A stretch of 64,000 bases of DNA. Source: Acidovorax sp. RAC01. GTDB lineage: Bacteria; Pseudomonadota; Gammaproteobacteria; Burkholderiales; Burkholderiaceae_C. The position numbers and the translations under genes were made by a program. The notes under the pieces were generated by a model that saw only the letters and a program-made list of their open reading frames with translations, made no database searches and was not told where the DNA came from. The DNA lies in assembly GCF_001714725.1 (NCBI RefSeq), contig NZ_CP016447.1:1441001-1505000 (forward strand), written 5' to 3'. This document shows positions 29,633 through 55,600 of this stretch, piece after piece (position 1 is the first letter of the stretch; the number at the start of each line of letters is the position of its first letter).

Positions 29633-29765
29633 TAAGCTAACTGCTCCTCTGCAAGCAGAAAAGCGAGGCCATTATCAATCACTTTATGCGGGGCGTGGGG
29701 TTTTATTTCTGAGGGTGTTCCCGGTGCGGCGCGAATCCCGTGGACGTCAAGGGGTAAAATCAGTG

Positions 29766-29880
29766 CGTCTTTGGGGAGTAGCCCGCCCGGCGCGCAACGC
29801 ACCGGGGCATGCGTCAACACACTTGGGTCCACACGTGGCCTATGGCGCATGCGGCTTTCAGGTTGGGCGAGACCATTGAC
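29766..29880 (+). ncRNA. yybP-ykoY manganese riboswitch
   Basis: The leader of the GDT1-type exporter carries the class hallmarks: TTTGGGGAGTAGC near the 5' side, GTCAACA at 29813-29819 and GGGCGAGACCATTG on the 3' side, closing a P1 helix around two arms. This riboswitch senses Mn(II) and is a known companion of Mn exporters. A TAAAAT hexamer at 29755-29760 fits a -10 box just upstream. The SD (AAGGA) comes about 65 bases after the aptamer, so control may be at translation; no intrinsic terminator is seen between them. Confidence 0.85.
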
Positions 29881-29960
29881 TGCATGCCGATCCACATGGC
29901 CGGAGTCGGAGTGCAGTCAATGCGTTTTCAATTCGTCCGGCCGTACAAGGACCTCACCCC

Positions 29961-48025: not shown

Positions 48026-48553
48026 TCAGATGATGTGGACAGTACCTGTCGGGGGGACCAAGGCCGTCCCCAGCGTCACAACCGTCCCCACACGCACCGC
48101 GTCGAACAACTCCACCACATCCGCATTGCGCATCCGCACGCACCCGTGCGAAAGCGGCACGCCCATGGCGCAATCGTCCGGGCAGCCGTGGATGTAGATG
48201 TAGCGGCGCAGCGTGTCGACCGCGCCGCCGCGGTTGATGCCGGGCTCGCAGCCAGTCAGCCACAGGATGCGGGTCAGGATCCAGTCGCGGCCCGGGTGAG
48301 CGGCGGCAAGCTCGGGCGAATACACCTCGCCCGTGGGGCGGCGGCCCACGAACACGGTGCCGGGTGCGCAGCCCGCACCCACCTTGGCGCGTACGCGGTG
48401 CAGACCGCGCGGGGTGCAGCCGCTGCCCCGGGTTTCGCCGGGGCCGTGGAGGGCGGTGGAGACGGAATAGCTGGCCAGCAGGCCGTGGCCTGCACCGTCG
48501 CCGTACAGGCGCAGTTCCTGCCGGATGATGTCGATGTGGATGCTCACCGCCAT
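48026..48553 (-). CDS. L,D-transpeptidase (YkuD) domain protein
   Basis: A 175-residue YkuD protein. The catalytic site is intact: His122 and Gly in IHGCPDDC, and Cys138 in SHGCVRM. YkuD enzymes crosslink peptidoglycan or attach lipoproteins. No signal peptide is visible, so the protein may be exported by an unusual route or act inside. It starts 21 bases after the flavin amine-oxidase-like gene and is the last of six same-strand genes. Confidence 0.88.
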   Translation of the reverse strand: MAVSIHIDIIRQELRLYGDGAGHGLLASYSVSTALHGPGETRGSGCTPRGLHRVRAKVGAGCAPGTVFVGRRPTGEVYSPELAAAHPGRDWILTRILWLTGCEPGINRGGAVDTLRRYIYIHGCPDDCAMGVPLSHGCVRMRNADVVELFDAVRVGTVVTLGTALVPPTGTVHII

Positions 48554-48574
48554 GCTGGTCAGCCGCTCTTTGGC

Positions 48575-50287
48575 TTATGCCACCACTGCCAGCCCCGCAC
48601 CGTGGCCGCGGGTGAAGGCTTCTTCAAACACCGAGTAACCTGACCAGTCGCTGTGCGCAAACGCGAGCCGCGCAGTAGCAGGGGTGGGAAGTGGCGCCAC
48701 GCGCTCTCCGTTGGATAGCGGCTTGCGCTTGCTGTGCATGCGCTCAAGGCCAATCTGGCTCAAAAACGCCTGTGCGCCCGGCACCGGGATGGCCATGGCG
48801 TGCCCGTACCGGGTGATCTCGATGCGGGTGATGCGCTGGCGCAGGTCGGGGTGGGGCACGGCCAGCGCCGCCAGGGCGGCTTCGGCCCAGTGCTGCCAGG
48901 GCCGGGTGGCCAGTTGCTGGCGGCCGTCAGGCACGTCACCCAAGGCCTGGTAGTAGCTCAGCACCGTGGGGCCAGCCAGGGTGGCGCGCACGTCCAGCCG
49001 CTGGTGGCCCGCGTCCACATAGCCCAGGCCGCCGGCGGTGGGGTCGGCGTAGAGCACGTTGTCCCAGGCGGGGGCTGCGCCGGGGCGGTCGGTCAGCGGG
49101 GCGCGGATGTGCATGTTGGCCACCAGCCAGGGGGCGGTCTGCAGGCGCTGCGCTGCCGCGGCCAGAAATGCGGGTGGGCTTTGCACCACGCGCGCGGCCA
49201 CCCGCACGGGTAGCGCCACGATGCAGCGCGGGGCCTGCCAGCGCTCCACGTTGCCGGTGGCGTGGTTGAGTGCATCCACCTCCACGCCGTGGCGGCTTTC
49301 GGTGATGCGCAGCACGCTGGTGGCTGTGCGCAGCTGGCCGCCACCCTGGGCGTTGTTCTGCAGGGGCGCGGCCAGTTGGGCCGCGATCCAGCCGTTGCCC
49401 TCAGGCCAGGTCAGCACGCTTTCACGGGATTCGTCCGCGGCATCGCCCGGCGCATGAAAACCGTGGCGGCTGGCAAAGTAGTGAATGCCCGCCCAGGCCG
49501 ACACGCGTGCCGTGCCGGCGCCGTAGTCGTCGCGGCAGCAGTAGTTGAGGTACCAGCGCAGGTGTTCGTCGTCCAAGCCCTGCTGCGCCAGCCATTGCGC
49601 AAAAGTCATAGCATCCAGGGCTTGATGGGATTGCGCCAGAGGCTGTTTAGAGCCCCAATTTTTGAGGGCAGGCATGGAAAAGCGTGCAGCGCGGTTTTCG
49701 GCCTCCACGGCCTGCGCAAAGCGGCGGTACTGGGCCAGCGTGGCATCGCCCACACCGTGCATGGGGAGCAGGCCTTCCTGCCACTCGCCCTCAAAGAACA
49801 GCCGCTCCTGCGGGCTGTGGCACAGGTGGCGCCCATCCTCGCCACCATATTGCCAGCGCCCGGCCACGCGCTGTCGCAGGCCCAGTTCTTCCAGCAGATC
49901 CTGCACCTCGCGGGCATCGTCGCCCGGCACGGGCAGGTAGTGCGCGCCCAGCGGGCAGGCAATGCCGTTGACCGCCCCGCCCCGGCTGTTGCCGCCCGCA
50001 CTGTCTTCCAGCTCCAGCAGCGCAAAGTCATGCACCCCCGCCAGCCGCAGCGACCGCGCCGCCGCCAGCCCGGCCACGCCGCCCCCGGCGATGATGACCT
50101 GCGCACGGCGCACCACGGCGGGTGCGGGGATGGTGCCGCCTTGGAGAAGGTCGCGCAGCGCATGGCCGCGTTCGATGTTCACGCCGGTGAAGCCACCTTG
50201 CAGTTCGCGCGGGGCGTCGTCGCACCCGGGCAGCAGCACGGCAGTAGCGGCCGAGGCGGCGGTGGCCAGGAATTGGCGGCGTTGCAT
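48575..50287 (-). CDS. FAD-dependent amine-oxidase-like lipoprotein
   Basis: A 570-residue flavoprotein. The N-terminus has a twin-arginine-like RRQFL and a lipobox LLPGC (Cys22). The dinucleotide-binding motif GGGVAGLAAARSL lies at 68-80, with NSRGGAVNG and a C-terminal HSDWSGYSVFEEAF that is typical of the amine oxidase fold. Similar proteins oxidise polyamines or other amines; no substrate is shown. Residues about 207-227 come from an in-frame copy of an intergenic repeat. It follows a spermidine-synthase-like gene. Confidence 0.85.
   Translation of the reverse strand: MQRRQFLATAASAATAVLLPGCDDAPRELQGGFTGVNIERGHALRDLLQGGTIPAPAVVRRAQVIIAGGGVAGLAAARSLRLAGVHDFALLELEDSAGGNSRGGAVNGIACPLGAHYLPVPGDDAREVQDLLEELGLRQRVAGRWQYGGEDGRHLCHSPQERLFFEGEWQEGLLPMHGVGDATLAQYRRFAQAVEAENRAARFSMPALKNWGSKQPLAQSHQALDAMTFAQWLAQQGLDDEHLRWYLNYCCRDDYGAGTARVSAWAGIHYFASRHGFHAPGDAADESRESVLTWPEGNGWIAAQLAAPLQNNAQGGGQLRTATSVLRITESRHGVEVDALNHATGNVERWQAPRCIVALPVRVAARVVQSPPAFLAAAAQRLQTAPWLVANMHIRAPLTDRPGAAPAWDNVLYADPTAGGLGYVDAGHQRLDVRATLAGPTVLSYYQALGDVPDGRQQLATRPWQHWAEAALAALAVPHPDLRQRITRIEITRYGHAMAIPVPGAQAFLSQIGLERMHSKRKPLSNGERVAPLPTPATARLAFAHSDWSGYSVFEEAFTRGHGAGLAVVA
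49605..49667 (+). repeat. ATAGC-type repeat copy inside the flavoprotein gene
   Basis: Sixty-three bases, exactly 21 codons, resembling the intergenic element at 53915-53975 on the opposite orientation (shared CATAGC, GCTTGA and GCGCCAGA blocks, about 70 per cent identity). The frame stays open. Confidence 0.55.
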
Positions 50288-50334
50288 GGTGTCAGTGCAT
50301 CTGGGTGTATGCAACGCCTGCGCCGCTGGCGACC

Positions 50335-50478
50335 GGCGCGGCCCAGACCAGCGGGCCCCGAGCAAGGGCCGCAAAGCCGCCTTGGCGGCGCTTCGCTGGC
50401 GTGCGCTGGGGGCGTCCCCCCGCCCGCTGCGCGCAGCGCTGCGAGAGCGGGGGGAAGACGCGAAGCGGCTCAGGGGGG
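50335..50478 (-). repeat. GC-rich structured repeat R2, copy 2
   Basis: Matches 42183-42296 in the blocks listed there, with an extra 30 bases near the middle. It lies in the 195-base gap between the spermidine-synthase-like stop and the flavoprotein start. Confidence 0.7.
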
Positions 50479-50482
50479 CTTC

Positions 50483-52012
50483 TCAATGTTTTCCCCATTC
50501 CCGCTCATACGTATGCACCAGCGCCTGGTTCGACAGCCGGTTCACATCCGCCGGCACCCGCGCCATGTCCCGCGGGAAGTCGAACAGCAGCGGCAAGGTC
50601 TCGGGCGTCAGAAACCGCAGGCCGTCCGGCAGCGCGTCGGGCAGGCGCCAGGGCCGGTGGCTGGCGATGATGAAGCCCCACTCGCCAAAGCTGGGCACAT
50701 GCGCGTGGTACGGCGCGGTGCGCAGACCCACCGATTCGATGGTCTCGGCCACCGTCCAGTAGCTCTTGCGCGCCACCAGGGGCGATGTGGTCTGCACCAC
50801 CGCGTAGCCGCTGGCCGCCAGGCGGCGGTCGAGCAGGGCATAAAAACTGTTGGTGTACAGCTTGCCAATGGAGAAGTTGGTGGGGTCCGGAAAATCGACC
50901 ACGATCACGTCAAAAACATCCGCCGTCTGCTGCAGCCAGCCAAACGCATCGGTGTTGACGATCTTCACCTTGGGGTTCTGCAGCGCGTGGCCGTTGAGCG
51001 CGGCCAGCGTGGGGTGTTCGCTGAAGATGCGGGTCATGGCCGGGTCGAGCTCCACCAGCGTGACGGATTCGACCGAGGGGTACTTCAGGATCTCGCGCAC
51101 CGCCATGCCGTCGCCGCCGCCCAGCACGGCCACACGCTTGGGCGCGCCGTGCGCGGCCATGGCGGGGTGCACCAGGGCCTCGTGGTAGCGGTATTCGTCG
51201 CTCTGGGCAAATTGCAGGTTGCCGTTGAGGTACAGGCGGTGCCCGGCGCGGCCGTGCGTGACCACGATGCGCTGGTAGGGCGAGGTGGTGCTGAAGATGA
51301 TGCGGTCCTGGTAAAACTTGTCCTCGGCAAAGGTGGTGATGTGGTCGGCCCCGGCCAGCGCGCCCAGCAGGATGCCCAGCACCATCACGCACGCCACCAC
51401 ATGCGCCTTCAGGCGCCGCAGCTCGTGCCGGAACAGCCACACCGCCCACAGCGCCACGGCGGCATTGAGCACGCCAAACACCAGCCCCGTGCGGATGAGC
51501 CCCAGGTGTGGCACCAGCAGCAGCGGAAACGCCAGCGACACCGCCAGCGCGCCCAGGTAGTCGAACGTGAGCACCTGCGAGACCAGGTCCCGCAGCGCCA
51601 CGTTGCGCTTCAGGATGCGCATCACCAGCGGAATCTCCAGCCCCGCCAGCATGCCCACCACAAACACCATGCCGTACAGCAGCAGCCGGAAAGCCCCCGG
51701 CGCATACGCGTTGGCCAGAAACAGCGTGGCCGGCAGCAGCCCGCCCACCAGAGCCACCATCAGCTCCACCCGCAAGAAGTGCGCGGGCAATTGCCGCTCA
51801 AAATAGCGCGACAACCACGAGCCCACACCCATGGCGAACAGGTACGTGCCGATGATGGTGGAAAACTGCAGCACCGAATCGCCCAGCACATACGACGCCA
51901 GCGCGCCTGCCGCCAGCTCGTAGAGCAGCCCGCAGGCGGCTACCACGAAGACGCTGAAGAGCAGCGCGATTTCGATGGGGCGGGGGCCGGTGGCGGGGGT
52001 GGTTTCCTTCAT
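50483..52012 (-). CDS. Membrane-anchored spermidine synthase-like protein
   Basis: A 509-residue protein with about seven N-terminal transmembrane helices (residues 12-205) and a cytoplasmic or peripheral polyamine aminopropyltransferase domain. The SAM-binding motif is VAVLGGGDGMAVREIL near residue 298-313 and the catalytic DFPDPTN near 369. The enzyme family transfers aminopropyl groups from decarboxylated SAM. No SAM decarboxylase is adjacent, so donor supply and acceptor are open. It follows the DUF350 gene by 94 bases. Confidence 0.9.
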   Translation of the reverse strand: MKETTPATGPRPIEIALLFSVFVVAACGLLYELAAGALASYVLGDSVLQFSTIIGTYLFAMGVGSWLSRYFERQLPAHFLRVELMVALVGGLLPATLFLANAYAPGAFRLLLYGMVFVVGMLAGLEIPLVMRILKRNVALRDLVSQVLTFDYLGALAVSLAFPLLLVPHLGLIRTGLVFGVLNAAVALWAVWLFRHELRRLKAHVVACVMVLGILLGALAGADHITTFAEDKFYQDRIIFSTTSPYQRIVVTHGRAGHRLYLNGNLQFAQSDEYRYHEALVHPAMAAHGAPKRVAVLGGGDGMAVREILKYPSVESVTLVELDPAMTRIFSEHPTLAALNGHALQNPKVKIVNTDAFGWLQQTADVFDVIVVDFPDPTNFSIGKLYTNSFYALLDRRLAASGYAVVQTTSPLVARKSYWTVAETIESVGLRTAPYHAHVPSFGEWGFIIASHRPWRLPDALPDGLRFLTPETLPLLFDFPRDMARVPADVNRLSNQALVHTYEREWGKH

Positions 52013-52106
52013 GTGAGGGCGCATGCCATGGGCGCCCACCGTGCCAGCGGACGCCGCACAAGGGCCGCCATGCCGCACGGGCGGGGCAGCCGCTCAGCGG
52101 GGTGTT

Positions 52107-52328
52107 TCAATGGATGGCCGCCGCCACGATGATGCTGATGCCCAGGCACATGGCGGCCACCACCATGGCCAGCGCCTTGTTCTGCTTTTCCACAATCTCG
52201 CGCCACAGGTCATACGGCGTGATCTTGTCGATGATGATGAACGCCACCCAGAAGATGATGATGCCCATCAGCGCGTACAGCAGCGTGCCGCCGATGGACA
52301 GGGGGTGGAGCCATTCGAATTTGGTCAT
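52107..52328 (-). CDS. DUF350 membrane protein (YjfL-like)
   Basis: A 73-residue protein with two transmembrane helices (residues 15-33 and 52-71) and a short polar link (ITPYDLWREIVEKQNKA), the DUF350 pattern seen in E. coli YjfL. A single DUF350 unit is present, whereas YjfL has two; so it may dimerise. CAGGAAAACAGC supplies the SD. Function unknown; family neighbours include PspA-related and polyamine genes. Confidence 0.9.
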   Translation of the reverse strand: MTKFEWLHPLSIGGTLLYALMGIIIFWVAFIIIDKITPYDLWREIVEKQNKALAMVVAAMCLGISIIVAAAIH

Positions 52329-52362
52329 GCTGTTTTCCTGTGAAGTTCGGGGGGTGTCGAGG

Positions 52363-53880
52363 TCATTTGTGGCTGCCGCCCGATGAGTAGCCGCCGTACG
52401 AGCCGCCGGGGCTGCGGTAGCTCGACGATGACGAGGAACAATTTTCCACCTGCGGGTCGCAGCGCGAGCAGCGGCTGAGCAAAAGCAGCAGGATGAGGAG
52501 GATGACGGCGATCAGGATGATCGTGCCGCAGCCCATGCCCTTGGCGGCCACGAAGGGGCCGGCATCGTCGCGCTGCAGCACGTCTTTCTTGTCCTGCAGG
52601 TTGAAGGCTTTGGCCACCGCATCACTGGCGATCTTGTCGCCGGCCGACCAGGTCAGTTCGGTGGGGCTTTGCTCCAGCGAGAGCACGCCCTTGCTGCTGG
52701 CAAAGTCGCGGTTGCTGGTTTTCTGGCCGCGGTGCACCTGCCAGTAGAACTCCCCCAGCACGTAGGTGGTCTCTGCCGTGTAGCTGTATTTCAGCTCGTA
52801 CTTGGTGCCCATGTAGGTGGCGGTGCGGCCACTCGCCGCAAGCTGGGGCGCGCCCGTGGTGGGGCGCACCATGCTCCAGCCCTCTTCCGAATCGACCAGG
52901 AAGGCGAAGCCGCGCTTCTGGTTGTAGAGCAGGTACTCGCTCCAGCCAAAATGCTCGTCGTCACCTGGGGCCACGCCCATGCGGTGCTGGAAACCCACCA
53001 CCTGCCAGTGCACGCCCTGCAGCTGGCCCTTGGAGCCCAGCGGAATGATGGGGCGCACAGGCTCGTCCTGCTGGGCCGAGCGCAGCTCGCCGCCCACGCC
53101 GCTGCCCAGGTCGATGATGCTGGCGCACGAGCCGCAGGTGATGCTCTTGGTACTGGCCAGCTGCACCTGCACGGGCGCGCCGCAGTGCGGGCAGTTGAAC
53201 TGGCGGCCTTTTTCTTCCTTGGCCGATTCATCCTTGAGGCCCTGGAGCTTGAGGTCTTCCAGCAGCACCGATTTGCCGCGCTCGACGTGCGGCGGCTGGC
53301 GGCTGTAGTCGATGCTGAGCACTTCGCCGTCGGCACTGCGCAGCTCGACCATGTCGAACGGGTGGCCCAGCGGCGGCAGCTTGGGCAGCTCGCCCTGGGC
53401 CGACATGAGCGAGGCCTGCCCGGTGGAGGCCACGCTGTAAGGCTTGCCGTTGATGGCCGTGGTGGCACCCAGCCGGAAACGCGCGGCCTCGGGCAGCTCG
53501 CGGCCCGGGTTGATGGGCCGGGTAAAGACGTAGGAGCCGTTGTCCTCGCCCAGCGTCGCCATGGTGCCGTCGTCCAGGAAGGCGGCCCATTCGGTCCATA
53601 CGCCGGCAGCGCTCTTGTACTGCAGGCGGCCCACCAGGGTGAAGGGCGTGTCCTGCCCATCGAGCGTGATGCGCCCGCTGGCCATGAGTTGCAGCGGGCT
53701 GTGGTCGTCAAACACCTCCGCCATCTTGCCCAGGCGGGTGAGCACGTCGCCGTTGCGCACCACCGTGCTCTGGCAGTAGCCGCACACGGCGTGGGTGGAC
53801 TGCGCGCTCTTGAATTCGACAGGCGCGCCGCAGCCTGGGCAGGGCGCCCGGTAGTAACGCTGGGTGGGTTCGGATGCCAT
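52363..53880 (-). CDS. DUF4178 protein with two zinc ribbons and C-terminal membrane anchor
   Basis: A 505-residue protein. Zinc ribbon 1 has Cys14, Cys17, Cys33 and Cys36; ribbon 2 (about residues 228-250) has CPHCG and CGSC. Two DUF4178 domains follow each ribbon (YKSAAGVWTEWAAFLDDG and WSEYLLYNQKRGFAFLVD). One transmembrane helix (IILIAVILLILLLLL) lies near residue 445, and the tail is Ser/Gly-rich. It starts 100 bases after the SPFH gene and is 34 bases before DUF350. Function unknown. Confidence 0.92.
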   Translation of the reverse strand: MASEPTQRYYRAPCPGCGAPVEFKSAQSTHAVCGYCQSTVVRNGDVLTRLGKMAEVFDDHSPLQLMASGRITLDGQDTPFTLVGRLQYKSAAGVWTEWAAFLDDGTMATLGEDNGSYVFTRPINPGRELPEAARFRLGATTAINGKPYSVASTGQASLMSAQGELPKLPPLGHPFDMVELRSADGEVLSIDYSRQPPHVERGKSVLLEDLKLQGLKDESAKEEKGRQFNCPHCGAPVQVQLASTKSITCGSCASIIDLGSGVGGELRSAQQDEPVRPIIPLGSKGQLQGVHWQVVGFQHRMGVAPGDDEHFGWSEYLLYNQKRGFAFLVDSEEGWSMVRPTTGAPQLAASGRTATYMGTKYELKYSYTAETTYVLGEFYWQVHRGQKTSNRDFASSKGVLSLEQSPTELTWSAGDKIASDAVAKAFNLQDKKDVLQRDDAGPFVAAKGMGCGTIILIAVILLILLLLLSRCSRCDPQVENCSSSSSSYRSPGGSYGGYSSGGSHK

Positions 53881-53914
53881 CAGGGGCAGCTGCCGTGCGC
53901 GCGCAGGGTTTTTT

Positions 53915-53975
53915 GAAGCCTTTTTGGCTTCTGGCGCTTGTCCCTCAAGCGCAGGCAGCTATGGTTTTTATAGTG
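53915..53975. repeat. ATAGC-type structured repeat, intergenic copy
   Basis: Two perfect small hairpins in a row: GAAGCC/GGCTTC with a TTTTT loop and GCGCTTG/CAAGCGC with a TCCCT loop, then AGCTAT and TTTATAG. It occupies most of the gap between the SPFH and DUF4178 genes. Related fragments are at gene ends and inside two genes in this window. Confidence 0.7.
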
Positions 53976-53980
53976 TCAGG

Positions 53981-55036
53981 TCAGATCAGCTTCTTGAGCA
54001 GCTCGGACTTCTTGGCGTCGAACTCTTCCTGCGTGAGGATGCCCTTGGCCTTGAGGTCTCCCAGCTTTTCCAGCGTGGCCATCACGTCTTCGGGCTTGAC
54101 GCCCAGCGGCGCGGCTGCCGCCTGTGCCGCCGCAGCCGCGGCAGGGGCCACGGGGGTCTGCAGGCCCTGGGCCAGGTTCTGTGCCAGTACCTGGCCCAGC
54201 GCCACGCCGGCACCAAGGCCCATGGCGTCACCGGCAATGCCGCTGCCGCCGCCCGCGCCGCCTTCGGCAAACTTGGGGATGGCCTGCGCCGTCTGGTACT
54301 GCATGAACTTGGCCATGTCGTTGCCGACCATGCCCATGCCGATCTTCTGGTCCATGATCTTCTGCAGCTCTTCGGGCAGCGAGACGTTCTGGACCGTCAT
54401 GCCTTCGAGCTGCAGGCCGATCTTGGCGAACGCAGGGGCCAGTTCCTTGGCCAGCGCGTCGGCAAACATCACCTGGTTGGCAGCCAGGTCGAGAAACGGC
54501 AGGCCGCTGCCGGCAATGGCGTTGCTGATGTTCTGCAGCACCAGCCCGCGCAGCTGGCCTTCGAGGTCGCCCACGGGGTAGGTCTCGCGGGTGCCCGAGA
54601 TCTCGGTGTGGAACAGCTTGGGGTCGGCAATGCGGAAGGCGTAGTTGCCGAACGCGCGCAGGCGCACGGCACCAAAGTCCTTGTCGCGGATGGTGATGGG
54701 CTGGGGCGTGCCCCACTTCTGGTCGATCTGCTGGCGCGTGCTGAAGAAGTACACGTCGCTCTTGAAGGGCGACTGGAACAGCTTGTCCCAGTTCTTCAGA
54801 TACGTAAGCACCGGCAGGGTCTGCGTGGTGAGCTTGTAGGTGCCGGGCGCAAACACGTCGGCCACCTGGCCTTCGTTGACGAACACCGCCATCTGCGATT
54901 CGCGCACCACCAGCGTGCCGCCGTTCTGGATTTCCATCCCGCTCATCGGGAAGCGCCAGGCCAGCGTTCCGTCGCTCTCCTCCGTCCACTGGATGATGTC
55001 AATGAACTGTTTCTTGATGAAGTCCATGAGGGCCAT
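53981..55036 (-). CDS. SPFH-domain protein with SHOCT tail (YdjI/virion-core type)
   Basis: A 351-residue protein. An SPFH/band-7 domain covers about residues 30-240 (LAWRFPMSG, NEGQVADVFAPGTYKL, PVGDLEGQLRGLVLQN), then a Gly/Ala-rich linker, and a SHOCT motif near 315-349 (LEKLGDLKAKGILTQEEFDAKKSELL). No transmembrane segment is seen. B. subtilis YdjI, of the same group, is coded with a PspA homologue and acts in membrane-stress responses. GGAG precedes the start. First gene of the six-gene run. Confidence 0.9.
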   Translation of the reverse strand: MALMDFIKKQFIDIIQWTEESDGTLAWRFPMSGMEIQNGGTLVVRESQMAVFVNEGQVADVFAPGTYKLTTQTLPVLTYLKNWDKLFQSPFKSDVYFFSTRQQIDQKWGTPQPITIRDKDFGAVRLRAFGNYAFRIADPKLFHTEISGTRETYPVGDLEGQLRGLVLQNISNAIAGSGLPFLDLAANQVMFADALAKELAPAFAKIGLQLEGMTVQNVSLPEELQKIMDQKIGMGMVGNDMAKFMQYQTAQAIPKFAEGGAGGGSGIAGDAMGLGAGVALGQVLAQNLAQGLQTPVAPAAAAAAQAAAAPLGVKPEDVMATLEKLGDLKAKGILTQEEFDAKKSELLKKLI

Positions 55037-55330: not shown

Positions 55331-55600
55331 ATGACCCGCATCCGCCACGCCGCCCGCCAGAACAAGACCATGCTGATGAAGACGGGCAGCTACTACGTGA
55401 TCCACATCGGCGTGGCCGCCATGGTGGCCTACGCCGTCACCGGCAACCTTTGGGCGTCGCTCACGCTCAGCCTGCTGGAGCCCACGGTGCAGGCGGTGGC
55501 GTTCTTCTTCCATGAAAAGGCCTGGGACCGGGCCGCCAAGCGCAAGGCAGCAGCAGCCGCTGGCATGTCAGCCGATGGGCCCGTGGCCCAGCCGGCCTGA
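55331..55600 (+). CDS. DUF2061 membrane protein
   Basis: An 89-residue protein with two short helices (about residues 22-38 and 42-62) and the DUF2061 signature (KTGSYYVIHIGVAAMVAYAVTGNL, EPTVQAVAFFFHEKAWD). Its function is not known. AAGGAG lies before the ATG, and a Fur box lies upstream, which would make it iron-regulated. A small gene follows. Confidence 0.85.
   Translation: MTRIRHAARQNKTMLMKTGSYYVIHIGVAAMVAYAVTGNLWASLTLSLLEPTVQAVAFFFHEKAWDRAAKRKAAAAAGMSADGPVAQPA

Follow-up and report, generated by a model that had tools for sequence, protein, structure and literature searches.

On which side of the inner membrane does an aminopropyltransferase fused to a membrane domain act, and what do the genes beside it contribute? 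This question is raised by six genes in a 64,000-nucleotide stretch of DNA from Acidovorax sp. RAC01 (NZ_CP016447.1, positions 1,441,001 to 1,505,000), analysed whole and called the window below. The genome is a single contig of 4.57 Mb, and its closest named relatives, within a named set comprising the best 80 of 303 relatives (mostly Comamonadaceae), are Acidovorax. An initial annotation made from the sequence alone had placed six open reading frames (ORFs) between 55036 and 48026 on the minus strand, as we also find, and had proposed that they form a polyamine-based envelope-stress system. Five of the six make up a conserved module: the genes for an SPFH/SHOCT protein, a DUF4178 protein, a half-length DUF350 protein, a fusion of seven transmembrane (7TM) helices to an aminopropyltransferase domain, and a flavoprotein of the twin-arginine translocation (Tat) lipoprotein type. 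We lean towards reading this module as the PspA-free Burkholderiales form of a membrane-aminopropyltransferase operon, in which the enzyme is periplasmic and its product is met by the flavoprotein.

Conservation was examined in 300 genomes spread evenly over Burkholderiales, of which 48 carry DUF4178. A stretch of up to 20 kb around each DUF4178 place was fetched and scanned with profiles made from the six window proteins. Some fetched stretches end early with their contig, so that locus counts are lower bounds and absences there are no proof. Flavoprotein matches below 150 bits were discarded before loci were counted, and each ORF was started at the first start codon, which makes some lengths too long. 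In the 47 loci from other genomes, the fetched stretch contained DUF350 (45 loci), the fusion (40), the flavoprotein (39), SPFH (34) and SpeD (30). DUF350, the fusion and the flavoprotein occurred together in 38 of the 47, and all three with SPFH in 26. The initial annotation had named co-occurrence and gene order across Burkholderiales as a check of its grouping; five of its genes recur together in these loci, far from chance. The 47 carriers span 15 families and 28 genera, and because they are related to one another, Fisher values overstate their independence.

The same association was seen at the level of whole genomes. DUF4178 and the flavoprotein were both present in 47 of the 300 genomes and both missing from 251, with one discordant genome in each direction (flavoprotein alignment search, 48 carriers). 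The genome lists behind the co-occurrence counts were compiled by hand, and the flavoprotein and PspA surveys scored only part of each genome's first-look candidates. The two discordant genomes (G159 and G195) are fragmented and belong to the same genus. In four further genomes the flavoprotein gene is present away from DUF4178, on a different contig (G032, G077, G262) or about 460 kb off (G202).

The 40 loci with a fusion show two layouts: 21 share the collinear arrangement of the window, and in the other 19 the fusion and DUF4178 are on opposite strands. The length of the DUF350 ORF follows the layout without exception (L034-L081), being 70-76 residues in 21/21 collinear loci and at least 128 residues in 19/19 divergent ones, as if a single unit of two transmembrane (2TM) segments paired with itself in one layout and had been duplicated in the other. 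Genes that interrupt the core in single relatives were considered as shared extra parts and rejected, most of them being of unrelated kinds. In L092 (4233-8974), genes for an MHYT-PAS hybrid histidine kinase and for an HD-domain response regulator separate the fusion from the flavoprotein; a similar gap of 4.8-4.9 kb lies there in L089, L093-L096, L098, L099 and L103, the content having been scanned in L092 only. Foreign genes also occupy the interval between DUF350 and the fusion in some relatives: L097 (1078-7322) has a DNA methylase gene together with AlbA-type and ResIII genes, L061 (4686-6704) an AlbA-type gene and L091 (6051-7133) a Fic gene. In L057 the insert between core genes is a TonB receptor gene. 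Separately, one genome carries, apart from its main module, a second and short ORF of the DUF4178 type (open frame of 235 aa) with a SpeD gene shortly downstream of it (L051, G061:C24). The profile did not detect this place, which was excluded from the 47 loci.

The fusion is the central enzyme of the module. Its AlphaFold2 model (58 sequences; mean predicted local distance difference test score (pLDDT) 93.7, predicted template modelling score 0.81) has seven long helices in residues 12-220, in agreement with the seven-helix topology proposed initially, followed by the catalytic domain. This C-terminal domain has the aminopropyltransferase (SpeE superfamily) fold and the catalytic DxxDP aspartates. 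The fusion family is widespread, with members in 31 of 299 genomes sampled across the phylum (E 1e-60), 23 of these genomes lying outside Burkholderiales. Residues Q267, D272, E273, Y276, D301, D323, D355, D373 and D376 are identical in the window protein and the 23 out-of-order fusions; G299 is present in 20 of these 24 sequences, and position 321 is Glu or Asp in all 24. We take D301, D323, D355, G299 and position 321 to have the roles found in sites for decarboxylated S-adenosylmethionine (dcAdoMet). The matches listed by the fold searches span residues 226-489, with none covering the 7TM part, and are silent on whether the 7TM fold is known. We know of no product assigned to fusions of this family.

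The orientation of the fusion was predicted from the charge of its loops, with loop limits set by hand from the hydropathy of the window protein before the structure model was available. Lysine plus arginine averaged 9.8 in the loops after helices 2, 4 and 6 and 0.28 in those after helices 1, 3 and 5, and the difference had the same sign in 112/112 sequences, the window protein included. In the distant set, made up of the window protein and the 23 out-of-order fusions, the values were 8.3 versus 0.7, again with the same sign throughout (24/24). By the positive-inside rule, positively charged loops are cytoplasmic. The even loops would therefore lie in the cytoplasm and helix 7 would run outward, which places the catalytic domain in the periplasm. 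The aminopropyltransferase domain is thus predicted to lie on the same side as the exported flavoprotein, a point that is new here. In a literature search for a periplasmic or outward-facing aminopropyltransferase we recognised no paper, although one may still be in print.

Exported domains tend to be cysteine-poor, and the catalytic domains of the fusions fit this tendency. Cysteine is lacking in 95/112 of them and in 19/23 of the out-of-order ones, and none of the 112 has two; soluble SpeE proteins of the order have at least two cysteines in 23/28. This depletion is used here as support only, because the domain is cysteine-free in just 23/40 sequences when the order sample is taken by itself and because the SPFH proteins, which are expected to be cytoplasmic, are cysteine-free in 45/64 and show low cysteine content to be unspecific.

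SpeD is a partner of the module, beyond what the initial annotation could see. It recurred in 29 loci when neighbouring ORFs were clustered, and it is present in 47/48 DUF4178 genomes versus 57/252 others. In 6 of the 47 loci the SpeD ORF and the end of the flavoprotein ORF share 4 bases. The sole SpeD match in the window's own genome (C1:1311693) is about 180 kb from the module, near transketolase and aminopeptidase P genes. As the sole Spermine_synth match in that genome is the fusion itself, the module is the only SpeE-type user of dcAdoMet found there. Carriers have one SpeE-type gene in 41/48 cases and two in 7/48 (matches of at least 90 bits). Li et al. reportedly described in 2019 an AdoMet decarboxylase with a polyamine-independent role, in which SpeD accompanied a membrane-protein/SpdSyn-like fusion and DUF350 and spermidine synthesis was not restored. 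That fusion is said to be of the MFS type, which may set it apart from the 7TM subfamily.

The flavoprotein was annotated initially as a lipoprotein-type protein, and the conserved motifs bear this out. R3, R4 and C22, which form the twin-arginine motif and the lipobox cysteine, are kept in at least 90% of 52 flavoprotein sequences (C22 in 96%); Pfam TAT_signal scores below its cut-off on the window protein. The model (pLDDT 88.4) has a flavin amine-oxidase fold, and Foldseek placed putrescine oxidase and monoamine oxidase (MAO) in the top ranks. PF01593 was not listed for the window protein up to E 0.1, in a search whose HMMER filters can drop weak matches, and is present on several close homologues in precomputed lists. 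Excerpted text of PMC11107197 states that SpdH, the spermidine dehydrogenase of P. aeruginosa, bears a Tat signal and suggests that it is periplasmic, which provides a precedent for the membrane side of the flavoprotein. SpdH differs in having 15% identity to the flavoprotein and in ranking below the monoamine and putrescine oxidases. The fold fits an amine oxidase, and amine oxidation is a putative reaction of the flavoprotein.

In outline the module is known from the operons described by Ravi et al. in 2024 (PMC11237479), and the version here has SPFH in the place of PspA together with a Tat flavoprotein. In the second CesT/Tir-PspA group of that study, a 7TM-spermidine-synthase fusion, DUF350 and DUF4178 share one operon, as in the window, where DUF350 is half-length. 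The CesT/Tir-PspA dyad distinguishes that group, since neither family is among our six genes, which include SPFH/SHOCT and the Tat flavoprotein instead. We did not recognise the lipoprotein of that group, Ctha_1186, in our set of six, no profile for it having been run. The third group of Ravi et al. is also close: a Band-7 protein with SHOCT and a C-terminal 2TM part replaces the PspA dyad, and the set also includes SpeD and a flavin oxidase-like protein. There SpeD is in the operon, whereas it is unlinked in the window genome. That group further includes an ATP-grasp relative of glutathionylspermidine synthetase, a potassium channel, DUF1190 and DUF2491; these are absent among the six genes and the scanned divergent neighbour, the rest of the genome not having been searched.

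The initial annotation had noted that PspA is missing from the cluster, and we found none elsewhere in the genome either. All 17 candidates for PspA/IM30 were scored with 0 matches, while controls were positive in 9/14 genomes, and a hidden PspA partner elsewhere in the genome was thus rejected. PspA exceeded the Pfam cut-off in 10/48 DUF4178 carriers versus 12/252 other genomes, and in none of those 10 carriers is it close to the module, being on a different contig or hundreds of kilobases away. Outside the order, profiles derived from Burkholderiales found DUF350 near 17 of the 23 fusions, SpeD near 11, DUF4178 near 5 and SPFH near 3. A Pfam scan of 10 ORFs from four of these loci showed PspA near the fusion in two, L177 (with CesT/Tir and DUF4178) and L181. 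This agrees with the published operon group of Ravi et al. and with the kinship to PspA-linked operons that had been proposed at first.

From these results the following mechanism is proposed. SpeD, encoded elsewhere in the genome, would make dcAdoMet in the cytoplasm. The 7TM fusion would take it up at the inner membrane and, because its catalytic domain is predicted to lie in the periplasm, pass the aminopropyl group on to an amine located at the outer face of that membrane or beyond it. On the same side, the Tat-exported flavoprotein would then oxidise the product of the fusion or the precursor of that product. SPFH/SHOCT, DUF4178 and DUF350 may form an inner-membrane scaffold, with SPFH in the position that PspA has in relatives. 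The gene set, its conservation, its co-occurrence with SpeD, the lack of a PspA match in this genome, the seven helices of the model and the charge pattern are computational results; the passage of dcAdoMet across the membrane, the acceptor (an amine in the periplasm or a lipid head group), the reaction of the flavoprotein and the role at the envelope are inferred. In its most specific form, to which we attach slightly more doubt than belief, the fusion is an extracytoplasmic aminopropyltransferase that is fed dcAdoMet through its own 7TM part, perhaps with DUF350, and modifies a target on the outer face such as a lipid head-group amine, and the flavoprotein acts on the product there.

Several observations weigh against a periplasmic enzyme and a shared pathway. 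Hydropathy counts in the distant set gave seven segments in 16/24 sequences, six in 6/24 and eight in 2/24, and the cysteine figures of the order sample and of the SPFH proteins given above weaken the support from cysteine depletion. To our knowledge, no route is known that carries dcAdoMet to the periplasm. The fold of the flavoprotein names no substrate, because its Z values are close together and include enzymes that do not act on amines (MAO-A 28.0, putrescine oxidase 27.6, renalase 26.7, phytoene desaturase 26.6, protoporphyrinogen oxidase 26.1 and SpdH 25.1). An active-site lysine near the flavin is typical of MAO-type enzymes; in the sequence alignment of the 52 flavoproteins every position has lysine in at most half of the sequences, so this residue is not kept. 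The flavoprotein was near only 2/23 out-of-order fusions (L163 and L164), matches of 35 and 23 bits in two others being uncounted. Within the order, a DUF4178 match is missing from 3/8 other sampled genomes of the same family, and no promoter-like site was found on the minus strand ahead of the SPFH gene.

The alternatives were weighed against the same data. An ordinary polyamine supply, in which a cytoplasmic catalytic domain makes spermidine or a related polyamine from putrescine, the 7TM part anchors the enzyme or exports the product, and the flavoprotein degrades the exported polyamine, appears unlikely. It would have to accommodate the odd number of helices and the one-sided charge in all sequences examined. 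In addition, excerpted text of PMC12803844 describes bacterial homologues of membrane-aminopropyltransferase fusions, possibly of a subfamily other than that of the 7TM fusion, as uninvolved in spermidine or spermine synthesis.

We consider it improbable that the module is an SPFH-based envelope-stress system in which the scaffold acts like PspA-band-7 assemblies and polyamine chemistry serves in signalling or regulation, the enzymes reporting the state of the membrane. Ravi et al. (PMC11237479) do propose that PspA/polyamine operons tie polyamine level or aminopropylation to membrane structure, and the PspA genes near the L177 and L181 fusions are in line with this. However, no PspA above the cut-off was found in 38/48 DUF4178 genomes, that of the window included, and among the clustered neighbouring ORFs regulator families recurred in at most 7 loci. 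This explanation is compatible with an extracytoplasmic aminopropyltransferase, and the two are not exclusive. It is very improbable that the SpeD proteins are pyruvoyl-dependent ornithine or arginine decarboxylases and that the fusion uses another donor: an excerpt of PMC10407285 reports neofunctionalised SpeD homologues of this kind to be widespread, but the fusion keeps the dcAdoMet-type site at the five positions whose roles are presumed above.

If the fusion does work outside the cytoplasm, an AdoMet-derived cofactor would be used there, dcAdoMet would cross the inner membrane, a passage of which we know no other case, and bacteria would have a new means of altering envelope charge. It could also explain why 7TM-type fusions fail to take the place of spermidine synthase, and a group of bacteria largely without PspA would have an envelope-modifying module of its own. 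With the enzyme and the exported flavoprotein on the same side, a vague polyamine idea would become directly testable.

The sixth gene, encoding a YkuD-domain protein, was included by the initial annotation as an exported transpeptidase, and neither point found support. A profile built from the window protein alone found YkuD in 0 of the 47 other loci within the fetched stretches, and the protein has matches in 3/120 genomes of the family, its own included (E 1e-20), so the gene was rejected as a module member. A homologue follows the flavoprotein gene in 14 of the 80 named loci. We regard the gene as a local addition found mainly in Acidovorax. ElsL is by far its best NCBIfam family, at a score below the cut-off (Table 1), and no signal peptide is visible on reading the N-terminus by eye. 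Excerpted text of PMC8649774 presents ElsL as a cytoplasmic L,D-carboxypeptidase that lacks a leader and serves in peptidoglycan recycling; the window protein resembles it in its leaderless YkuD domain and similar length. Of the polyamine-based envelope-stress system proposed at the start, the conserved module, the seven helices, the exported flavoprotein and the kinship with PspA operons stand, the polyamine product and the oxidation of an amine are putative, and the membership of YkuD falls.

Table 1 Features of the locus, with positions in the window.
Feature	Position	Strand	Match or remark
SPFH / Band_7_1 protein, C-terminal SHOCT, 351 aa	53981..55036	-	Pfam Band_7_1 257.1 bits, SHOCT 36.7 bits
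DUF4178 protein, 505 aa	52363..53880	-	Pfam DUF4178 109.7 bits, 2 stretches
Half-length DUF350 protein, 73 aa, two hydrophobic segments	52107..52328	-	Pfam DUF350 56.4 bits, profile 6-65 of 133
7TM domain fused to aminopropyltransferase domain, 509 aa	50483..52012	-	Pfam Spermine_synth; NF002956 696.3 bits (cut-off 472)
Flavin adenine dinucleotide (FAD) protein, twin-arginine + lipobox motif, 570 aa, flavin amine-oxidase-type fold	48575..50287	-	Pfam NAD_binding_8
YkuD-domain protein, 175 aa, ElsL-like	48026..48553	-	Pfam YkuD; NF040925 180.6 bits (cut-off 270)
Large ORF with repeats, 1209 aa from first start codon	44634..48263	-	True start probably ~47.9 kb
Small DUF2061 membrane protein	55337..55600	+	
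Manganese riboswitch yybP-ykoY	29761..29955	+	RF00080, 57.4 bits

The family labels given initially (SPFH/SHOCT, DUF4178, DUF350, Spermine_synth and YkuD) were recovered with Pfam, with the corrections that DUF350 is half-length and that YkuD is nearest to ElsL. The SPFH protein has no apparent N-terminal membrane helix, and a sequence search of the PDB gave no match for it. In the DUF4178 protein we read two CxxC...CxxC zinc-ribbon-like motifs and one C-terminal hydrophobic helix in addition to its two DUF4178 domains. DUF4178 matches two places in the genome, and DUF350 matches the module gene as its single hit.

From SPFH to YkuD, the intergenic gaps are 100, 34, 94, 195 and 21 bases. The 195-base gap before the flavoprotein gene folds little better than shuffled sequences (z -1.36) and no terminator-like site was found in it, so it gives no argument for a break in transcription. 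Part of this gap recurs once elsewhere in the window, with 2 mismatches.

Immediately downstream of the YkuD gene lies a large ORF with near-identical repeats of about 97 residues. Its C-terminal IPTL-x-EW tail, which we take to be a sorting-like motif, is followed by a hydrophobic helix and arginines. The gene for the small DUF2061 membrane protein is divergent from the SPFH gene, and a manganese riboswitch is present elsewhere in the window (Table 1).

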